Source of the DNA: Opitutus sp. ER46
GTDB taxonomy: Bacteria > Verrucomicrobiota > Verrucomicrobiia > Opitutales > Opitutaceae
Assembly: GCF_003054705.1 (NCBI RefSeq)
Contig: NZ_QAYX01000020.1
Coordinates: 186,001-250,000 of the forward strand
Reading direction: 5' to 3'
Length of the DNA: 64,000 nucleotides
Positions 28,250 through 36,550 of the stretch are shown here, piece by piece. Positions within the stretch are counted from its first letter, which is position 1. Each line of letters opens with the position of its first letter. The notes beneath the pieces were generated by a model. That model did no database searches, was not told where the DNA came from, and saw nothing but the letters and a program-made list of their open reading frames with translations. Both the position numbers and the translations under genes were made by a program.

Positions 28250-29089
28250 ATGCCCGGACAACTCAACGAATATCCCGTTCGGCCCGGCCTGACAATCTGC
28301 TGGGGAACGATCCAAACTCATCCCGATCTGGTCGCCTCGGCGGCCGTCGACAGCGCAACCGCCATCCTGCTGTTCACGTTGCCGGAGTCAGGCGACCGCG
28401 CACAGGAGGTCATGCAGTTGACTTCTCCGCGTCTGCTCCGAACCCAAGCCGCCGGTCCGCTCGCCGCGGGATTATTCGCTGTCGCCCTGGCGCTCGACGA
28501 CAGCGCCTGGCTCGAACTCGTCGGCGACGACCTAACCCCGGGTGTCGCACGCATGCGCGCCTTCGGCGGTGAGGCCAACTCCGATCTGGTCACGGTGGCG
28601 CTCTCGCCGACGGCGCGACTCGCGCTCGAATCCATCCGCCGGTGCCCGTTTGGCGGCACCTGCCGCTCCATGGCACTCTCCGCTCGCGCGCACGATCTGC
28701 TCATCGAGTTCTTGACCCGACTGGCCGACGACCATCCGACCCATCCGGTCGCCGCGACGCAGTTGCTCGAAGACCAGGTGCGCTCTGCCGCCCAACTGCT
28801 CGTCCAACACCTTGAATCGCCTCCTTCCCTCGCCGAGCTCGCCCAGCGGGTCGGCGTGAGCGAAACAACCCTAAAACGAGGGTTCCATCAGGTGTACCGC
28901 ACCACCGTCTTCGGGTATCTGCGCACCCAGCGCATGGAAAAGGCGCACGCCGCACTGCAGAGCGGCACCGCCACGGTTCTCGAGGCCGCTGCCCTCGTCG
29001 GCTACAGCAATCCGTCCAACTTCGCCGCCGCCTTTCGCCGCCAATTTGGAGTGAACCCCAAGACCTTCCAGCTGGCCGTCCGCCGCTGA
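28250..29089 (+). CDS. AraC-family transcriptional regulator (PchR-like)
   Basis: This is a regulator of about 279 residues. The N-terminal part (1-190) is an unrecognised sensor. The C-terminal AraC domain (about 195-279) has two helix-turn-helix motifs (LAELAQRVGVSETTLKRGF and AAALVGYSNPSNFAAAFRR) and the signature FGVNPKTFQ. Layout and the wording of the first helix-turn-helix resemble PchR-type regulators, which govern siderophore-linked TonB genes. Its position just before tonB and a TonB-dependent receptor supports that. Starts at 28181 and 28082 are also open; I chose the ATG at 28250 because the upstream part is Arg-rich and not protein-like. Confidence 0.82.
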   Translation: MPGQLNEYPVRPGLTICWGTIQTHPDLVASAAVDSATAILLFTLPESGDRAQEVMQLTSPRLLRTQAAGPLAAGLFAVALALDDSAWLELVGDDLTPGVARMRAFGGEANSDLVTVALSPTARLALESIRRCPFGGTCRSMALSARAHDLLIEFLTRLADDHPTHPVAATQLLEDQVRSAAQLLVQHLESPPSLAELAQRVGVSETTLKRGFHQVYRTTVFGYLRTQRMEKAHAALQSGTATVLEAAALVGYSNPSNFAAAFRRQFGVNPKTFQLAVRR

Positions 29090-29106
29090 TCGTCGCGCCT
29101 TCCTCA

Positions 29107-29144
29107 GGTGGAAATGGGCCGGGCGCGGGTGGAATTTTCCACCC
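29107..29144 (+). promoter_or_regulatory. candidate AraC-type binding site upstream of tonB
   Basis: GGTGGAA occurs at 29107-29113 and again at 29128-29134, exactly 21 bases apart, on the same face of the helix as expected for AraC-family direct repeats. The second copy also forms an inverted repeat, GGGTGGAA-TT-TTCCACCC (29127-29144). It lies between the AraC gene and tonB, 143 bases before the tonB ATG. Confidence 0.5.
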
Positions 29145-29286
29145 TCGCCGTGCGATGATGGCCGCGTGAAATCGTACAACGCGCATCGTCCACCGCGCCG
29201 GCCCGCCGCCGGACTTCTTCGCGGCTGCCCCACGATCGCGCCGCGCTCCGGGCCACGCCGCCACCGGAGCCTCCGTTGGGTGTGAA

Positions 29287-30030
29287 ATGCCGTTGTACGC
29301 CCGCCCACATCCCTCGCTATCGCGCCGCTTTGTCATTCCAGCCATCCTCGCCGTGCTGGTCCACGTCGCGTTGGCCATCGTTCCGACGCGTCCGGCTGCC
29401 ACGTCCCCGAACGCAACCGTTCGCGGTGCCGCCCCGGCCCTCCGCATTGTCTCACTCTCACTCCGTGACAGCAGCCCCCCCACAGACGCATCTCAGCCTG
29501 AGAATTCGCTCCACGCTGCTGGCCCCTCCGGCCACGCGCCTAATGACACCCCTGCAATCACGCCGACGCTGCCACCCTGCCTCGGCCTCGCCGGCGATGC
29601 CGTAACGCAGTCCGCCGGCGACCGTCCGGGCAACGCGGCAGATTTCCTATCCTCAGAGGCCTTCATCTCCGGCTCCGCCCTGACCGCCTACGCCGCCCAC
29701 GAACTCCGGGGTGCAGGTGGCCGGGCCTCGATCGCATTCCCCGAGCCCACGTTCTCCCCACTGCCGCCCTATCCTGAGCGCGCCCGACTCGAGCGCCGCG
29801 GCGGCACCGTCCAGCTCCAGGTCCACCTCTCTCCTCACGGTCGTCCGACTCGGGTGCAGGTCGCCGTCTCCTCCGGCTATGCCGATCTGGACGCAGCCGC
29901 GCGCGAGGTCGTCCAGCAACGCTGGCGTTTCCCACGCGCCGCGGTCGCCAGCTCCCGGCCACCGCTTCGCGTCACCGTCCACTTCAGCCTCCAAGACCGC
30001 CACGCCCTCGTGGTCCTCGCCGCCCGTTGA
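29287..30030 (+). CDS. TonB family energy-transducing protein
   Basis: This is a 247-residue protein. One N-terminal transmembrane helix lies at about 14-33. A low-complexity periplasmic linker follows, and the C-terminal TonB domain (about 160-240) has the motif LPPYPERARLERRGGTVQLQV and SGYADLDAAAREVVQQRWRF. It passes proton-motive energy from ExbB/ExbD to outer-membrane receptors. ExbB/ExbD are not in this window. The receptor gene begins 18 bases downstream, so this TonB is probably dedicated to it. Confidence 0.9.
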   Translation: MPLYARPHPSLSRRFVIPAILAVLVHVALAIVPTRPAATSPNATVRGAAPALRIVSLSLRDSSPPTDASQPENSLHAAGPSGHAPNDTPAITPTLPPCLGLAGDAVTQSAGDRPGNAADFLSSEAFISGSALTAYAAHELRGAGGRASIAFPEPTFSPLPPYPERARLERRGGTVQLQVHLSPHGRPTRVQVAVSSGYADLDAAAREVVQQRWRFPRAAVASSRPPLRVTVHFSLQDRHALVVLAAR

Positions 30031-30047
30031 CCGACTTCACTCCTTCC

Positions 30048-32585
30048 ATGCTCCCGCGATTCCGCTCCCATTCCGTCCCACCCACCGCGCTCCTGCTGCT
30101 GTTGTTCGCCGCGGCCGCCCGCGCCGCCCAACCCTCCGCGCCGGTCACGCTCCCGCCTCCCGCCGCCAGCACGCCCTCGGCCATCGACGTTACCGTCTCC
30201 GCCAACGCCCCGGATCCCGTCGAAGCCGTGGGCAAGACCGTCTTCGCGGCGCCCGACGTTTCCCGCCAGACCACCGCCCGCCTCGATGTCAACGAGCTCG
30301 CCCGCACGTTGAACAACGTCCAGTTCGACGCCACGCGCGGCGCGCTCTCCGAGGACACCGTCCTCAATCTCCGACCCGCGCTCCTCAGCATCGCCGGCGG
30401 CCGCACCTACGAAAACAACTTCGTGGTCGAGGGTCTCAGCACGACCAGCATCACCGACACCACCAACACCAACGTGCACGCCTACGACAGCGTCGTGGGC
30501 CATCCGCAGACCACGTTTGTGTCTCCCGCCCTCCTCGGCGCGCTCACGGTTTTCGAGAGTGACGTTCCCGCGCGCTACAGCGGATTTACCGGCGGCGTCG
30601 TCAAGGCGGACCTGCGCGATCCGACCGGCGCCTGGGGCGGCGGCGCCGGCTACGCCCGCGCCAGCAGTTCCTGGATACAGTATCTCACCGCCCCGGAACA
30701 CACGGGCGCCACGATGCCCGAGAAGCCCCGCTTCGAGCGCGAGGTTTTGGACCTCTACCTCGATGTCCCGATCTCCACTCGACTCTCGGGGCTGCTCGGC
30801 TGGACGCGCCAGTGGGCCGTCCTCGAGAACACCCAGCGGCTCGCCGCCTACGGTCGATCCACGCGCGCCGAGACCACCACCGACAACATCACCGCCAAGT
30901 TCGTCTATACCTTTGCCCCGGAGACGAAGCTTAGGTTCACGTCGCTCTGGTCGCCGTACCGGCAGGAGAACACCGAGCAGGATCTCAAGCTTCAGCACAA
31001 CGACAGCTGGCTCAACAAGCTCGAGCTCTCGCGTCAGGTGGGCGGCACCGAGTTTCTCGCCTATGCCGCCCTGCAACTCGCCGACAACAGCCGCGAGCAG
31101 GCGCCCAATCTCTACACGTACAAGAATTTCGGCGCCGGTGATCAGGTCGACTGGGTCGCCGACACCGCGGCAACCGGCGCACGCGGCGGCAATGGCGACA
31201 TGACCTCGACGCAGCGCGACCTCCCGATCGGCGCAGAGTACTCCCTCCCGCTCACCGCCACCGGCCGGCTCAGCGTCGGCGCCGACTATACGTTCACCCG
31301 CGCCCGCAAACAGCGCCCCCTCACCAACCACGCCTACCGCCACCAATCCACCTCCAGCGTCGTCAAGGACGCCACCGTCACCTCCGCCCTCGGCCGCGAC
31401 GACCCGACGGTCCTCGAGGGCGAGCAGGCGCTCAATTATCGCCTCACCTACCTCGCTTTCGACGCCAACGTTCAGCTTCAGGCCGCCGACGCCTGGGCCC
31501 AGTGGACCGACCAGGGCCGGGTCTTCGGCCTGCCGTGGAGCTACCGTGCCGGGCTGCGCTACGACACCAACGATTTCCTCCGCAATCACGACGTCGCGCC
31601 GCGCTTCACCGCCCAGATCGAGCCGTTCCGCTGGCTGAAGCTCCACGCCGGCTTCAACCGCTATTACACGCACGCCATGCTGGCGTACCAGCTGCAGGAG
31701 AAATACCCCGACACCTACGCCCACACGCGCACCTACACGCTCGTGAACGGTCGCAAGGTTTACGGCGACGCGTGGACGCTCTCCCTGCACTCGCGCCCCG
31801 CGAACTACGCGCAGGCCGGTCTCAACACGCCCTACAGCGATGAGTTCTCGTACGGCCTCACGTTCGATCTTGCCCGGCTCGGTACCCTGCGCGTGGCGTT
31901 CCTCCGTCGGCAAAACCGCGACGAGTTTGTCCGCGACGAGGGCACTCGGCTGACCTACGTGAACGAGAAGACCGGCGCCACCAGCACCTACACGAAGTAC
32001 ACCGTTTCCAACGCCGGCTTCACCGACTACCGCAGCACCTCGCTCGAGTGGAAAAAGCACTGGCGCCACCACGAGTTTCGCGCGGGCGCCACGTTCTCCG
32101 ACACCGAGACCTCCACGCCGGAGGCCAACTACTTCTCGGAAAACTACGACTCCGAGGCGCTCAACGAGCTCGTCTATTACCGCGGTGCCCTCGTAACCCG
32201 CCGCCAAGCCACCCTCGACCGGGCCAATTTCGCGCGCCCGACCTACGTCAACCTCGCCTGGAGTTCGTCCTGGTTCCAAGACCGCCTCGCCGTCGACGTT
32301 CTCGGCCGTTGGAACACCGCGTACGAGCGCGTCGATGACAGCGGCTCCACCATTGTCGTCGGCGGGCAGCGCTACGACCGGTACGACAATGTCCACGTGC
32401 CCGCCGGCATCATCAACGACCTGAGCCTGCGCTGGCGCGCCGTCGAAACTCACCGCGGCACGCTCACCGTCGAACTCAAGGTCGGCAACCTCCTCAACCG
32501 GCTGCCGTACTCCGAAGGCGCCTCGACCACCACCCCGTACCAGGAGGGCCGCTCCTTTTGGCTGCGCACCAGCTACGCGTTTTAA
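30048..32585 (+). CDS. TonB-dependent outer-membrane receptor
   Basis: This is an 845-residue receptor. It has a signal peptide at about 1-28 (PPTALLLLLFAAAARA). The plug domain spans about 50-170, with a TonB-box-like start (SAIDVTVSANAP) and the loop FVVEGLSTTSITDTTNTN. The 22-strand barrel ends in FWLRTSYAF, with a terminal Phe as usual. It also resembles the outer-membrane receptors often called OmpA-related or CarboxypepD-less. The substrate cannot be read from the sequence; an iron or heme chelate is plausible from the neighbours. A TTG overlapping the tonB stop is an alternative start, but the ATG at 30048 gives the cleaner signal peptide. Confidence 0.88.
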   Translation: MLPRFRSHSVPPTALLLLLFAAAARAAQPSAPVTLPPPAASTPSAIDVTVSANAPDPVEAVGKTVFAAPDVSRQTTARLDVNELARTLNNVQFDATRGALSEDTVLNLRPALLSIAGGRTYENNFVVEGLSTTSITDTTNTNVHAYDSVVGHPQTTFVSPALLGALTVFESDVPARYSGFTGGVVKADLRDPTGAWGGGAGYARASSSWIQYLTAPEHTGATMPEKPRFEREVLDLYLDVPISTRLSGLLGWTRQWAVLENTQRLAAYGRSTRAETTTDNITAKFVYTFAPETKLRFTSLWSPYRQENTEQDLKLQHNDSWLNKLELSRQVGGTEFLAYAALQLADNSREQAPNLYTYKNFGAGDQVDWVADTAATGARGGNGDMTSTQRDLPIGAEYSLPLTATGRLSVGADYTFTRARKQRPLTNHAYRHQSTSSVVKDATVTSALGRDDPTVLEGEQALNYRLTYLAFDANVQLQAADAWAQWTDQGRVFGLPWSYRAGLRYDTNDFLRNHDVAPRFTAQIEPFRWLKLHAGFNRYYTHAMLAYQLQEKYPDTYAHTRTYTLVNGRKVYGDAWTLSLHSRPANYAQAGLNTPYSDEFSYGLTFDLARLGTLRVAFLRRQNRDEFVRDEGTRLTYVNEKTGATSTYTKYTVSNAGFTDYRSTSLEWKKHWRHHEFRAGATFSDTETSTPEANYFSENYDSEALNELVYYRGALVTRRQATLDRANFARPTYVNLAWSSSWFQDRLAVDVLGRWNTAYERVDDSGSTIVVGGQRYDRYDNVHVPAGIINDLSLRWRAVETHRGTLTVELKVGNLLNRLPYSEGASTTTPYQEGRSFWLRTSYAF

Positions 32586-32615
32586 ACCCCGGCCGCATTT
32601 CACTCCCGCTTCCGC

Positions 32616-33176
32616 ATGAAAACCAAACTCACCTCCCTCCTCCGCCTCAGCGCGCTCCTCTTCCTCGCTGGCTCCGTCCGCGCGGCCGATCCCTCGACGG
32701 CGCCCGCCGCCGGCGTCCGCGAAGTCCTCACGCAAGGCGGCGCCCGCGTCGGCCAGGAGATCGTCCTCGAGGGCTTCGTCACCGGCGTCTGCCACAGCGG
32801 CGGCCGCAAGGCCTTCCTGCACGACCTCAATCCCGATTACGCCATCACGCTCCGCGTCGAGCGTACAGGCGAGATGAAGGCCTTCGACCAGGACCTCAAG
32901 GGCCGCACTCTGCGCGTCACCGGCATCGTGCGCGAGCTGCGCATTGACCAGGCGTACCTCGACGCGTGGGAGACGCGCGCCGTCGCCGCCCACGCCGCCA
33001 AGGAGAAGACCAAGACCGAAAACTGCAGCGGCGAGTGCAACGACAGCCTGCCGCTCGCGACCGCCCGCAAGCGCATCACCGCTCTTCGCGCCCAGCTGGC
33101 CAAAGCCGACCGCGGCTATCTTTCCTCCATCTGGGTCGACGGCCTCAGTTGGGAAGTGAAGCCCGACGCCCGATGA
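32616..33176 (+). CDS. exported OB-fold-like protein with Cys motifs
   Basis: This is a 186-residue protein with a signal peptide (1-23, ending VRA). The core (about 35-115) has an OB-fold-like strand order: VGQEIVLEGFVTGVCH, AITLRV and GRTLRVTGIVREL. Cys59-His60 stand before a Ser-Gly-Gly-Arg-Lys turn, and Cys137 and Cys141 form a CSGEC motif. Three Cys plus His in an exported protein suggest metal or heme binding or a redox role; this is inference. It lies 30 bases after the receptor and overlaps the PepSY-type gene (ATGA). I know of no characterised homologue. Confidence 0.75.
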   Translation: MKTKLTSLLRLSALLFLAGSVRAADPSTAPAAGVREVLTQGGARVGQEIVLEGFVTGVCHSGGRKAFLHDLNPDYAITLRVERTGEMKAFDQDLKGRTLRVTGIVRELRIDQAYLDAWETRAVAAHAAKEKTKTENCSGECNDSLPLATARKRITALRAQLAKADRGYLSSIWVDGLSWEVKPDAR

Positions 33177-33733
33177 GGCTGCCGCACTGGCGTCACGTCG
33201 CCCGCGTGCTGCACCGCGACCTGGGCTACTTCTTCTTCGGCGCGACCGTCGTGTACGGCGTCTCCGGCGTGGCGATCAACCACCGCCACGACTGGGATCC
33301 CAGCTACAGCATCGTGCGCGTGGAGCGCACCGTGAACGCCGCCGATCTGCCGGCGACGTTCACGCGGGAGTCGGCCACCGCGCTCCTGCGCACCGCCGGC
33401 CTCCCCCAGACCTACCTCAAGCACTACACACCGACCGCCGACCAGGTACGGATCTTCTACCAAGGCGGCACCGCCACGCTTGACCGGACCTCGGGCAAGC
33501 TCGTCACCGAGACGCTGCAGCGCCGGCCCGTGCTCCACCTGTTCAACAAGCTGCACTACAATCCAGGCCGCTGGTGGACGTGGTACTCCGACGCCTTCTG
33601 CGGCGCGCTGCTCGTCGTCGCGCTTACCGGCCTCGTCCTCCTCCGCGGCCGCCAGGGCATCGGGCGGCGCGGCGGTGTCGTCACCGCCCTCGGCGTCCTC
33701 CTTCCCGGTGTCCTCATCCTCTCCTTCCTATGA
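33173..33733 (+). CDS. PepSY-associated transmembrane protein
   Basis: This is a 186-residue membrane protein. An N-terminal helix (about 14-36, GYFFFGATVVYGVSGVAINH) is followed by a periplasmic part of about 100 residues and two C-terminal helices (about 140-185). The start, with an aromatic-rich helix followed by NHRHDW, is the PepSY_TM pattern seen in proteins next to TonB-dependent receptors; in that family some members reduce ferric siderophores at the inner membrane. Here the protein is short, with a single PepSY-like unit and His residues near the first helix (NHRH) and in LHLFNKLHYNPGRWW. These could bind heme, but that is inference. It overlaps its neighbours on both sides by 4 bases. 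Confidence 0.75.
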   Translation: MRLPHWRHVARVLHRDLGYFFFGATVVYGVSGVAINHRHDWDPSYSIVRVERTVNAADLPATFTRESATALLRTAGLPQTYLKHYTPTADQVRIFYQGGTATLDRTSGKLVTETLQRRPVLHLFNKLHYNPGRWWTWYSDAFCGALLVVALTGLVLLRGRQGIGRRGGVVTALGVLLPGVLILSFL

Positions 33734-34620
33734 CTCCCGCTGTCGAATGCCGTGATCTCGTCCACTACTACGGCGACAAGCCTGCACTGCAGCACGTCTC
33801 GTGGCAGGTCGCGCCCGGCCGCATCTGCGGGCTGCTCGGCCGCAATGGCGCTGGCAAGACGACCACGATCAACATCCTCAACTCGTTCCTCACGCCGCGC
33901 GCCGGTGACTGCCTGCTGCTCGGCGAGGACGCCCAGCAGCTCTCGCCGGCCACCAAGGCGCGCATCGGCTACCTCATCGAGGGCCACGTGCAGTACGGAT
34001 TCTTCAACACCCGGCAGATCGAGGCGTTCTACGCGCGTTTCTACCCGCGCTGGAAACCTGCGATCTACTACCACCTGATGGCCAAGCTCGACATCACACC
34101 GCGCCAGCGGATCGCCACGATGTCCTGCGGCCAGCGCTCCCAAGTCGCGCTCGGGCTCATCCTCGCCCAGCAGCCCGACCTTATCATCTTCGACGACTAC
34201 AGCATGGGGCTCGATCCCGGCTACCGGCGGCTCTTCATCGACGTCATCCGCGACTACGCCGCCGACGGACAACGCAGCATCCTGCTGACGTCGCACATCA
34301 TCCAGGACCTCGAAGGGCTGGTGGACGATATCGTAATCTACCAGCGCGGTCGCGTTCTCCTCGACGCCCCGGCCCGCTGCATCGCCACCGAGTTCCGCGG
34401 CTTCTCCTTCCCGACCACCCCCGCCGTCACGGAGTTCTACGACGAACGCGCTCACCTGCGCCTCGAGCGCGGCGAGAAGCGCTCCACGCTCTTCGGCTTC
34501 CTCGATGAGGCCGCCGCGCGCGCGCAACTCACTCGCCTGGGCATTCCACTCCCCGCCGACCTCCGGCCCGAGCCGCTATCGCTCGAAGACACCTTTGTCG
34601 CCCTCACCGGCAAATACTGA
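33730..34620 (+). CDS. ABC transporter ATP-binding protein with altered motifs
   Basis: This is a 296-residue ATPase. Walker A GRNGAGKT (37-44) is intact. The signature reads MSCGQRSQ (131-138) instead of LSGGQ, and Walker B is LIIFDDYSMGLD (151-162), with Asp156 where the catalytic Glu is normal. The H-loop ILLTSH is present. The C-terminal extension (about 210-296) ends in LEDTFVALTGKY. It is of the CcmA/YtrB/NatA general type for drug or lipid ABC-2 systems. Asp for Glu may slow hydrolysis. It overlaps the PepSY-type gene and is followed 2 bases later by a membrane protein likely to be its permease. Confidence 0.85.
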   Translation: MTPAVECRDLVHYYGDKPALQHVSWQVAPGRICGLLGRNGAGKTTTINILNSFLTPRAGDCLLLGEDAQQLSPATKARIGYLIEGHVQYGFFNTRQIEAFYARFYPRWKPAIYYHLMAKLDITPRQRIATMSCGQRSQVALGLILAQQPDLIIFDDYSMGLDPGYRRLFIDVIRDYAADGQRSILLTSHIIQDLEGLVDDIVIYQRGRVLLDAPARCIATEFRGFSFPTTPAVTEFYDERAHLRLERGEKRSTLFGFLDEAAARAQLTRLGIPLPADLRPEPLSLEDTFVALTGKY

Positions 34621-34622
34621 CC

Positions 34623-35291
34623 ATGTTTCGCGCCCTTTTCTTCAAGGAATGGATCAAGCTCCGCCTCTGGTGGACGCTCCTCGCGGTGGCGAGCCTCGTC
34701 TACGCCGGGTTTCTCGCGCTGCGCTTGCGCCACGTCTTCGCCGTGTACGACGCGCCGATGGTATGGAGCAGCTGGATCTACAAGGCCTACCTGTTCTTCG
34801 GGCCGTTCAAGTACGTTCCGCTCGGCCTCGGCGTGACGCTCGCCGTCCTGCAGTTCCTGCCGGAGGTCCAGCAACACCGAATCCGGCTCGTGCTGCACCT
34901 GCCGCTCGGCGAAATCCGCGCCGTGGCGCTGCACCTCGCCGCCGGCCTGCTCCTGCTCTCGATCCTGGTGCTGCCGGCCGTCGCGGTGCTCGCCGCCGTG
35001 AGCACGCGCTATTTTCCGACCGAAATGCTCACCACGCTCTGGCTCACCGCCCTGCCCTGGGTGCTCGCCGGCTACGCCGGTTACCTCGTCGGCACCGCCG
35101 CGCTGCTCGAGGCCTCGTGGCGCGGGCGCGTCATTCTGCTCCTGCTCGGCGCCGCCGCGCTGCGGCTGTTCTTTGAAGAGACGTTCTACCAGAGCTACCT
35201 GCGCGTGCTCCCGGCGTTCGCTGCCTGGGCCGTCGCTGTCGTCCTGCTCCCGCTGCACGCCAGCGACCGTTTTCGGAAAGGCCTCGTCTGA
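34623..35291 (+). CDS. ABC-2-like membrane subunit
   Basis: This is a 222-residue protein with about six transmembrane helices (around 17-36, 60-78, 98-123, 140-162, 170-188, 196-214). It starts with FFKEWIKLRLWW, the cytoplasmic helix typical of ABC-2 permeases coupled to YtrB/NatA-like ATPases. I do not recognise a named family. It is most likely the permease partner of the ATPase gene upstream. Its stop codon overlaps the start of the next gene by one base. Confidence 0.75.
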   Translation: MFRALFFKEWIKLRLWWTLLAVASLVYAGFLALRLRHVFAVYDAPMVWSSWIYKAYLFFGPFKYVPLGLGVTLAVLQFLPEVQQHRIRLVLHLPLGEIRAVALHLAAGLLLLSILVLPAVAVLAAVSTRYFPTEMLTTLWLTALPWVLAGYAGYLVGTAALLEASWRGRVILLLLGAAALRLFFEETFYQSYLRVLPAFAAWAVAVVLLPLHASDRFRKGLV

Positions 35292-36550
35292 TGAAACTCG
35301 CCGCCCGCGCCCTCCTCCTGCTCACGAGCATCCTGCTCCTGGGCTACTACCTGCCCGCCGGATTCTGGCTTGTCGCCGCCCGTCGCGACCGAGCGCCCGT
35401 CGTCTTCTACAGCTGCGTGGAGAACCGCTTCCTGTTCTCCCGCGCCACGCTCGACGGCGTCCGCTACGCCGACGCCGCCGGCCGCAGCTATGATCGCGAC
35501 GAGTTTGAGCGGCTGCTTCCGCTGACCAACTGGGCCCAGCTCACCAAGGACGGTCGCATGCCCAAGGTGATCCAGGGCACCCCCGTCACGCTCGAGGCCG
35601 TCCGCCGCGCACAGTTCAGCCTCCGACTCACGCCGGACGCGCTCGACACGCCGCAGGTCCGGCTCTTCCCCCTGCTCGAGGCCGAGAGTGGCCGCGCGCG
35701 GCTCGAGCTGCCGTCCGACTTTCTCCGGCTCGGCGCGACCGTCGAGTTCCTCGACCCGAAGACCAACACCGTCCTCACGGACAAGAGCGCCCGGTTCGCC
35801 GCCGCCTTCGCCACCGTGGGCTTTCAGTTCCCCGTGCATTTCGCCGCAAACAATCCGACCAACCGCAAGCCCTACGACGAGGGCGCGTACCTCGTCGACG
35901 CAGCGCAAACGGTGTTCCATCTCCGCCAGGTCCGCGGCAAACCCGAGCTGCACCGTGTCGTCGACCTCGCCGCGCCCGAGCAGCGCGCCCGCTGGACCGA
36001 CCTGCGCATCCGCCACCTGCTCGTCCAGGAGATCGACTCGCGCGAAATTCATTCCCTGATCGTCGAGAGAAACGGCGCGGTGACGCTCGACGTCGGCCCC
36101 GCGCACCGACTCGTCACCCTCCCCCTCCAGCACTACGTGCCGGCCGCTGCCGAGGTCACGATCCGCGGCAACCTCCTCCACCGGCTCGTCGTGGTCCGCT
36201 CCGACGATTGGCTGGAGGCCATCGTGCTCGATCGCAACTACGCGCTGGTCGATCGCCACGAGGAACGGCTCACCCCGCGCGATGCCACGTCCGCCGGCCG
36301 GCTCGCCCGGCTCGTGTTCCCGTTTTCCTGGACGCTCACCGACGCCTCATCCGGTTATCTCGGGTTCCACCTGCACCTCGGTTCCCCCTGGGCGTTCGCG
36401 CTCAACGGCGTCCTCCTCGTCGGGTGGCTCGCGTGGCGCTTCCTCCGCCGAGAACGCTCACCCGGCGCACGTCGCGACTGGCTCGCTGCCGGCGGCGTGG
36501 CGGTCACGGGGGTGTTCGGCGTCCTCGCCGCCATTCTCGTCGACCGCTAG
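35291..36550 (+). CDS. DUF4857-like membrane-anchored protein
   Basis: This is a 419-residue protein. Helix 1 (about 8-28), a long periplasmic domain (about 30-350) and two C-terminal helices (about 355-380 and 395-416) are visible. The periplasmic part opens with RAPVVFYSCVENRFLFSR and carries repeated beta segments. I associate this layout and its place after an ABC ATPase and permease with the DUF4857 group of Bacteroidetes TonB loci; I could not check this by search. It is probably a periplasmic substrate or regulatory component of the ABC unit. It is last in the operon, and no terminator hairpin is visible after it. Confidence 0.6.
   Translation: MKLAARALLLLTSILLLGYYLPAGFWLVAARRDRAPVVFYSCVENRFLFSRATLDGVRYADAAGRSYDRDEFERLLPLTNWAQLTKDGRMPKVIQGTPVTLEAVRRAQFSLRLTPDALDTPQVRLFPLLEAESGRARLELPSDFLRLGATVEFLDPKTNTVLTDKSARFAAAFATVGFQFPVHFAANNPTNRKPYDEGAYLVDAAQTVFHLRQVRGKPELHRVVDLAAPEQRARWTDLRIRHLLVQEIDSREIHSLIVERNGAVTLDVGPAHRLVTLPLQHYVPAAAEVTIRGNLLHRLVVVRSDDWLEAIVLDRNYALVDRHEERLTPRDATSAGRLARLVFPFSWTLTDASSGYLGFHLHLGSPWAFALNGVLLVGWLAWRFLRRERSPGARRDWLAAGGVAVTGVFGVLAAILVDR

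Follow-up and report, generated by a model that had tools for sequence, protein, structure and literature searches.

A candidate receptor-coupled redox and ABC module, possibly for iron acquisition, in Opitutus sp. ER46

The route of ferrous iron across the inner membrane, once iron has been reduced in the periplasm, is stated as unknown for the Xus system of Bacteroidota (PMC13142918). FoxB and similar PepSY_TM proteins are heme-based periplasmic ferrisiderophore reductases (PMC13038864), and one subfamily of this otherwise iron-associated family has been linked to copper (PMC13038864; PMC12914433). The closest described locus, BT3625-BT3633 of Bacteroides thetaiotaomicron, rises 37-128-fold in iron depletion, is listed with colitis data, and carries the label putative fimbrillin (PMC10434189). 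Here, we analyzed an eight-gene module at positions 28250-36550 of a 64,000-nucleotide stretch of Opitutus sp. ER46 (contig NZ_QAYX01000020.1; hereafter the window), which joins a TonB-dependent receptor and a PepSY_TM protein to an ATP-binding cassette (ABC) unit containing DUF4857. We read it as a receptor-coupled operon for the reductive acquisition of a metal, most likely iron, and consider this reading about evenly balanced between right and wrong. Its parts are of known kinds, while their assembly, an exchange of redox partners, and a change in the ATPase are what is new.

Gene layout and recurrence across phyla

All eight open reading frames lie on the plus strand, in the following order:

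28250..29089, + strand: AraC-type regulator, putatively PchR-like (siderophore-uptake type) by its relatives (Pfam HTH_18, 1.4e-21)
29107..29136, + strand: candidate regulator site between araC and tonB, a direct repeat GGTGGAAAT-N12-GGTGGAATT in a 21-base register
29287..30030, + strand: dedicated TonB (Pfam TonB_C, 1.9e-16)
30048..32585, + strand: probable TonB-dependent outer-membrane receptor (homologues beside the same module in L003, 738 bits; L008, 646 bits; and L013, 528 bits)
32616..33176, + strand: exported OB-fold-like Cys protein, DUF4920-related (conserved Cys; DUF4920 match in homologues)
33173..33733, + strand: short PepSY_TM protein, likely a heme-bearing reductase (PF16357, 1.1e-12, 48.9 bits against a cut-off of 27; PF03929, 7.8e-7, 29.6 bits against 28.8)
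33730..34620, + strand: ABC ATPase with MSCGQ signature and DDYSMGLD (Pfam ABC_tran, 9.8e-20)
34623..35291, + strand: predicted ABC-2 type membrane domain with six helices and a NosY/CcmB-like fold (structure model)
35291..36550, + strand: DUF4857 protein, probably the ABC unit's periplasmic partner subunit, anchored in the membrane (PF16149, 9.3e-67, 225.5 bits against a curated cut-off of 25)

The open reading frame calls and Pfam, which names five of the eight proteins, agree with the original prediction on genes, strand, and joints, the last being ATGA overlaps at 33173-33176 and 33730-33733, a 2-base gap at 34620/34623, and a 1-base TGATG overlap at 35291. The window's receptor, OB-like, and six-helix proteins had no Pfam match of their own, and their identities were assigned on family evidence, i.e., a Plug domain in the L013 receptor homologue, DUF4920 in OB homologues, and an ABC-2 fold.

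Searching with a 77-residue ATPase fragment yielded 80 named loci, 12 of them verrucomicrobial and the rest mainly from Bacteroidota, with a few from Calditrichia, Chlorobiota, and Ignavibacteria; these loci were chosen by similarity, and counts among them are therefore not those of a random sample and are inflated by relatedness. The OB-like protein, PepSY_TM protein, ATPase, six-helix protein, and DUF4857 follow one another in that order in all ten verrucomicrobial loci with sequence upstream of the ATPase, and also in Bacteroidales; L096 reads TonB receptor-DUF4876-DUF6850-OB-PepSY-ATPase-six-helix-DUF4857. As this gene order recurs across phyla, the arrangement is more than chance. The ATPase, six-helix protein, and DUF4857 form the invariant core: among 63 well-flanked loci (at least 5 kb on either side of the ATPase), DUF4857 was present in 63, the six-helix protein in 62, a TonB receptor in 56, DUF4876 in 49, and DUF6850 in 46. 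The five downstream genes are thus conserved together and the receptor is linked with the ABC unit, both as originally proposed. An independent DUF4857 search of 296 genomes added 12 regions with a matching picture. DUF4857 is rare: within the window's phylum it turned up in 1 of 387 genomes, within the genus in 1 of 27, and within the phylum to which L075 belongs in 12 of 296. In a FastTree tree of the three core proteins (89 tips, 927 columns), the 13 verrucomicrobial sequences formed one clade with support 1.0.

The DUF4857 protein as a single query found no match in genome contigs, viral contigs, or plasmids. A genomic-island check provided no empty site to compare, as homologues of the downstream gene in six congeners adjoin none of the window's other neighbors. 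Among neighboring genes elsewhere, a large YCF48/BNR protein adjoins the module in 28 of the 63 well-flanked loci (e.g., L042:1692-4082, there with a type IX sorting tail), and in four Limisphaerales-type loci (L006, L007, L011, and L012) the five-gene unit is preceded by a secreted repeat protein (cluster c59), from which a prepilin-like protein separates it in L006, L007, and L012.

The predicted ABC complex and its redox partners

NosF is among the solved relatives of the ATPase (3.2e-18), and PmtA, GldA, and DrrA are its closest named models. A DD[FY]S/T motif after Walker B, with Asp for the usual catalytic Glu, occurred in all 92 ATPases and MSCGQ in 88; because the search seed itself contained both motifs, most weight falls on the 12 independently found loci (DD in 12 and MSCGQ in 10). 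The six-helix protein was modeled at a pLDDT (model confidence) of 89.6 and matched NosY (Z 14.8; 4.3 Å over 209 residues) and CcmB (Z 14.3) best, over 202-209 residues; ABCG domains score nearly as high, so that the match is to the ABC-2 fold rather than to a specific subfamily or relative, and on this model the protein is predicted to be an ABC-2 membrane domain. DUF4857 (pLDDT 93.4) was modeled as a beta-rich domain between N- and C-terminal membrane helices, weakly matching propeller chains (best Z 8.5), with no NosD or GldG among the matches listed and one further down the list possible. L105 and L106 encode the six-helix protein and DUF4857 as a single fused chain, which argues for a physical complex. 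Fold and fusion together support a predicted NosFY-like complex of ATPase, ABC-2 membrane domain, and DUF4857. Flanking the fused locus L105 (10620-11051 and neighbors) are a small exported protein and two or three TonB receptors, and in L078 and L079 a second six-helix-DUF4857 pair directly follows the first, suggesting a hetero-oligomeric version.

Upstream of this core lies the redox part. The window's PepSY_TM protein has three hydrophobic segments, and His14, His37, and His128 were invariant among 12 aligned sequences (three invariant His columns in 15 of 15). With three heme-type His per chain against four in the longer FoxB chain, FoxB-type binding of two hemes, on both sides of the membrane, would need a dimer. 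No solved relative of the PepSY_TM protein was found by sequence, and a PDB sequence search with six-helix, PepSY, and OB profiles gave no usable match. Across loci, PepSY occurs in 15 and a 4Fe-4S (Fer4_5) membrane protein in 35, with both together in none; the 4Fe-4S protein replaces PepSY at the same position. This state requires at least three changes on the tree, where L102 (PepSY) and L098 (4Fe-4S) are sisters with support 1.0. Both proteins probably act as reductases, and an ABC core that has traded a heme reductase for an iron-sulfur one would clearly illustrate functional substitution. A heavy-metal-associated-like stretch suspected by eye in the C-terminal part of the 4Fe-4S protein had no Pfam match and was not used as evidence. 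The OB-like and PepSY proteins are paired in 14 loci, with PepSY alone in L105 and OB alone in L099. In the OB-like protein, Cys59 is invariant in the alignment and a C-terminal CxxxC/CxxC occurs in most members; 3 of 12 homologues matched DUF4920 (best 4e-7). A second, full-length PepSY_TM protein is encoded elsewhere in the window's genome (G000:C23:585274-586578).

TonB, the receptor, and the regulator

A homologous TonB-ExbD-ExbB set adjoins the module in L003, L008, and L013 (Opitutales), divergent to the five-gene unit, and a receptor of the window's family lies beside this set in L003 and L008 and after DUF4857 in L013. Neither a plug nor a barrel domain was matched in the window's receptor itself; the Plug domain was recognized in the L013 homologue (3.4e-6). 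The receptor anticipated by the original prediction is present, with its start slightly shifted: the frame opens with TTG at 30027, overlapping tonB, and ATG at 30048 is the likelier start because a clean signal peptide results.

Three cyanobacterial relatives of the AraC regulator, matched over residues 114-275 (past the helix-turn-helix), lie on plasmids, each adjoining a TonB-dependent siderophore receptor; the regulator thus appears to resemble those of siderophore-receptor loci. The direct repeat at 29107-29136 may be its operator, being the only copy in the 5.7-Mb genome and absent from 100 window shuffles, results that are suggestive only, given that the pattern was picked after being seen. 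No repeat common to the cyanobacterial AraC loci was seen on inspection by eye.

Candidate function and comparison with known systems

If the module acquires metal reductively, the PchR-like AraC protein would switch the operon on, as inferred from its relatives, and TonB would power the uptake of a metal chelate through the receptor into the periplasm, as is established for these families. Heme on the conserved His of the PepSY_TM protein, or the 4Fe-4S protein at other loci, would then reduce the chelated metal so that the chelate releases it, and the OB/DUF4920-like Cys protein might hold or hand on the metal. Through slow ATP turnover, the ATPase, ABC-2 domain, and DUF4857 may act at the periplasmic face by moving or reshaping something there: they may drive the released metal or the emptied chelator onward, or operate on the reductase or metal site, with ferrous iron then free to enter via FeoB. 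The genome encodes FeoB, one FecCD permease on another contig, and five MotA/ExbB-type proteins; Pfam recognized no ferric-siderophore ABC importer parts (periplasmic binding protein or FecCD permease) in the module. A sharper version, which we hold only tentatively and think unlikely, is that TonB-linked reductive metal uptake gets its missing energy-driven step at the inner membrane from a NosY/CcmB-type complex whose ATPase site is weakened; this complex would couple ATP use to release or passage of the reduced metal and take electrons from interchangeable PepSY heme or 4Fe-4S reductases.

Several observations weigh against reductive metal acquisition. Neither PepSY nor a 4Fe-4S protein lies nearby in 24 of the 63 loci, and the four Limisphaerales-type loci show the five-gene unit with no receptor within the sequence covered. 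The search for a Fur-like box found none. ABC-2 folds mostly belong to exporters or assembly machines, not importers, and DUF4857 has no invariant or near-invariant Cys, His, or Met in its alignment and is therefore not an obvious metal ligand. Iron is favored over copper by the B. thetaiotaomicron induction, the AraC relatives at siderophore receptors, and the ferrisiderophore reductases known among PepSY_TM proteins. In P. gingivalis, a DUF4876 protein changes with hemin availability, listed together with HmuY and in the same direction (PMC10470040). Copper, for its part, is a rather unlikely but serious contender: the receptor would import a copper complex, PepSY or the 4Fe-4S protein would reduce the metal from Cu(II) to Cu(I), with the NosFY-like complex helping to load it onto a periplasmic or membrane protein. 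It gains from NosY being the best fold for the membrane domain, as NosDFY serves nitrous oxide reductase, a copper enzyme (PMC6530538), and from the CxxxC/CxxC motif and the His-rich stretches in several OB-like proteins, whereas in the sole expression dataset the inducing condition is iron depletion, the regulator's relatives belong to siderophore loci, and no copper enzyme gene recurs among neighbor clusters.

That the receptor/TonB operon and an independent redox-ABC operon are merely adjacent would fit the varying receptor families and positions (upstream, downstream, or divergent) and the four receptor-less loci, but the receptor stays linked despite changing family and side, and all genes rise together in Bacteroides (PMC10434189), which leaves this quite improbable. 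We give slightly less credence still to a role of the ABC trio in exporting or assembling a component of the surface (fimbrillin, the proposal of PMC10434189, or else a lipid or a lipoprotein), with the receptor incidental or a sensor. The usual export role of ABC-2 folds, the nearest named ATPase models, and the adjoining BNR proteins, of which some end in a type IX sorting tail, are in its favor; however, the genes that recur beside the trio encode a TonB receptor, DUF4876, DUF6850, and a redox protein, and no fimbrillin-type gene was recognized in the loci read.

The combination had been called undescribed, without experimental description as far as known. This holds for function, as the literature searched by names held no functional study, only the expression-table entry and the putative fimbrillin label; it fails for existence, given the low-iron expression data for the B. 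thetaiotaomicron counterpart (PMC10434189). The reported set of BT3625-BT3633 comprises DUF4857, a hypothetical protein, an ABC ATPase, PepSY-associated proteins, DUF4876, and a TonB receptor; the B. thetaiotaomicron locus itself was compared by this reported set, and this order is directly visible in L075 and L096. The window lacks DUF4876 and DUF6850, and differs in its receptor family and in having a TonB and an AraC regulator of its own. Beyond the original prediction, we add the exchange of PepSY for 4Fe-4S, the NosY/CcmB-type fold, the DD[FY]S change at Walker B, the six-helix-DUF4857 fusions, and the siderophore-type regulator.

Likeness to NosDFY lies in the NosF-related ATPase, the NosY-like membrane domain, and a separate periplasmic subunit. 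NosR is the 4Fe-4S partner of the Nos system, as a 4Fe-4S protein is in many module loci. The periplasmic subunit of NosDFY is the beta-helix NosD; the modeled DUF4857 is beta-rich, membrane-anchored, and weakly propeller-like. The module ATPase has Asp in place of the catalytic Glu, and no nos genes were recognized near the module. The Bordetella CrtA-CrpH copper operon shares a TonB receptor and a PepSY_TM protein, with possible redundancy with a 4Fe-4S reductase (CcoG), but no ABC unit is described there, and the PepSY_TM proteins compared for it span the membrane at least four times and have large periplasmic domains, against three segments in the window's protein. XusABC likewise pairs a TonB receptor with a PepSY inner-membrane reductase and is induced by iron starvation (PMC13142918, PMC10434189), whereas, as described, it has no ABC unit and carries a DUF4374 surface propeller. 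The module, which iron starvation induces in a gut commensal of humans, is a concrete candidate for the step that takes ferrous iron across the inner membrane.
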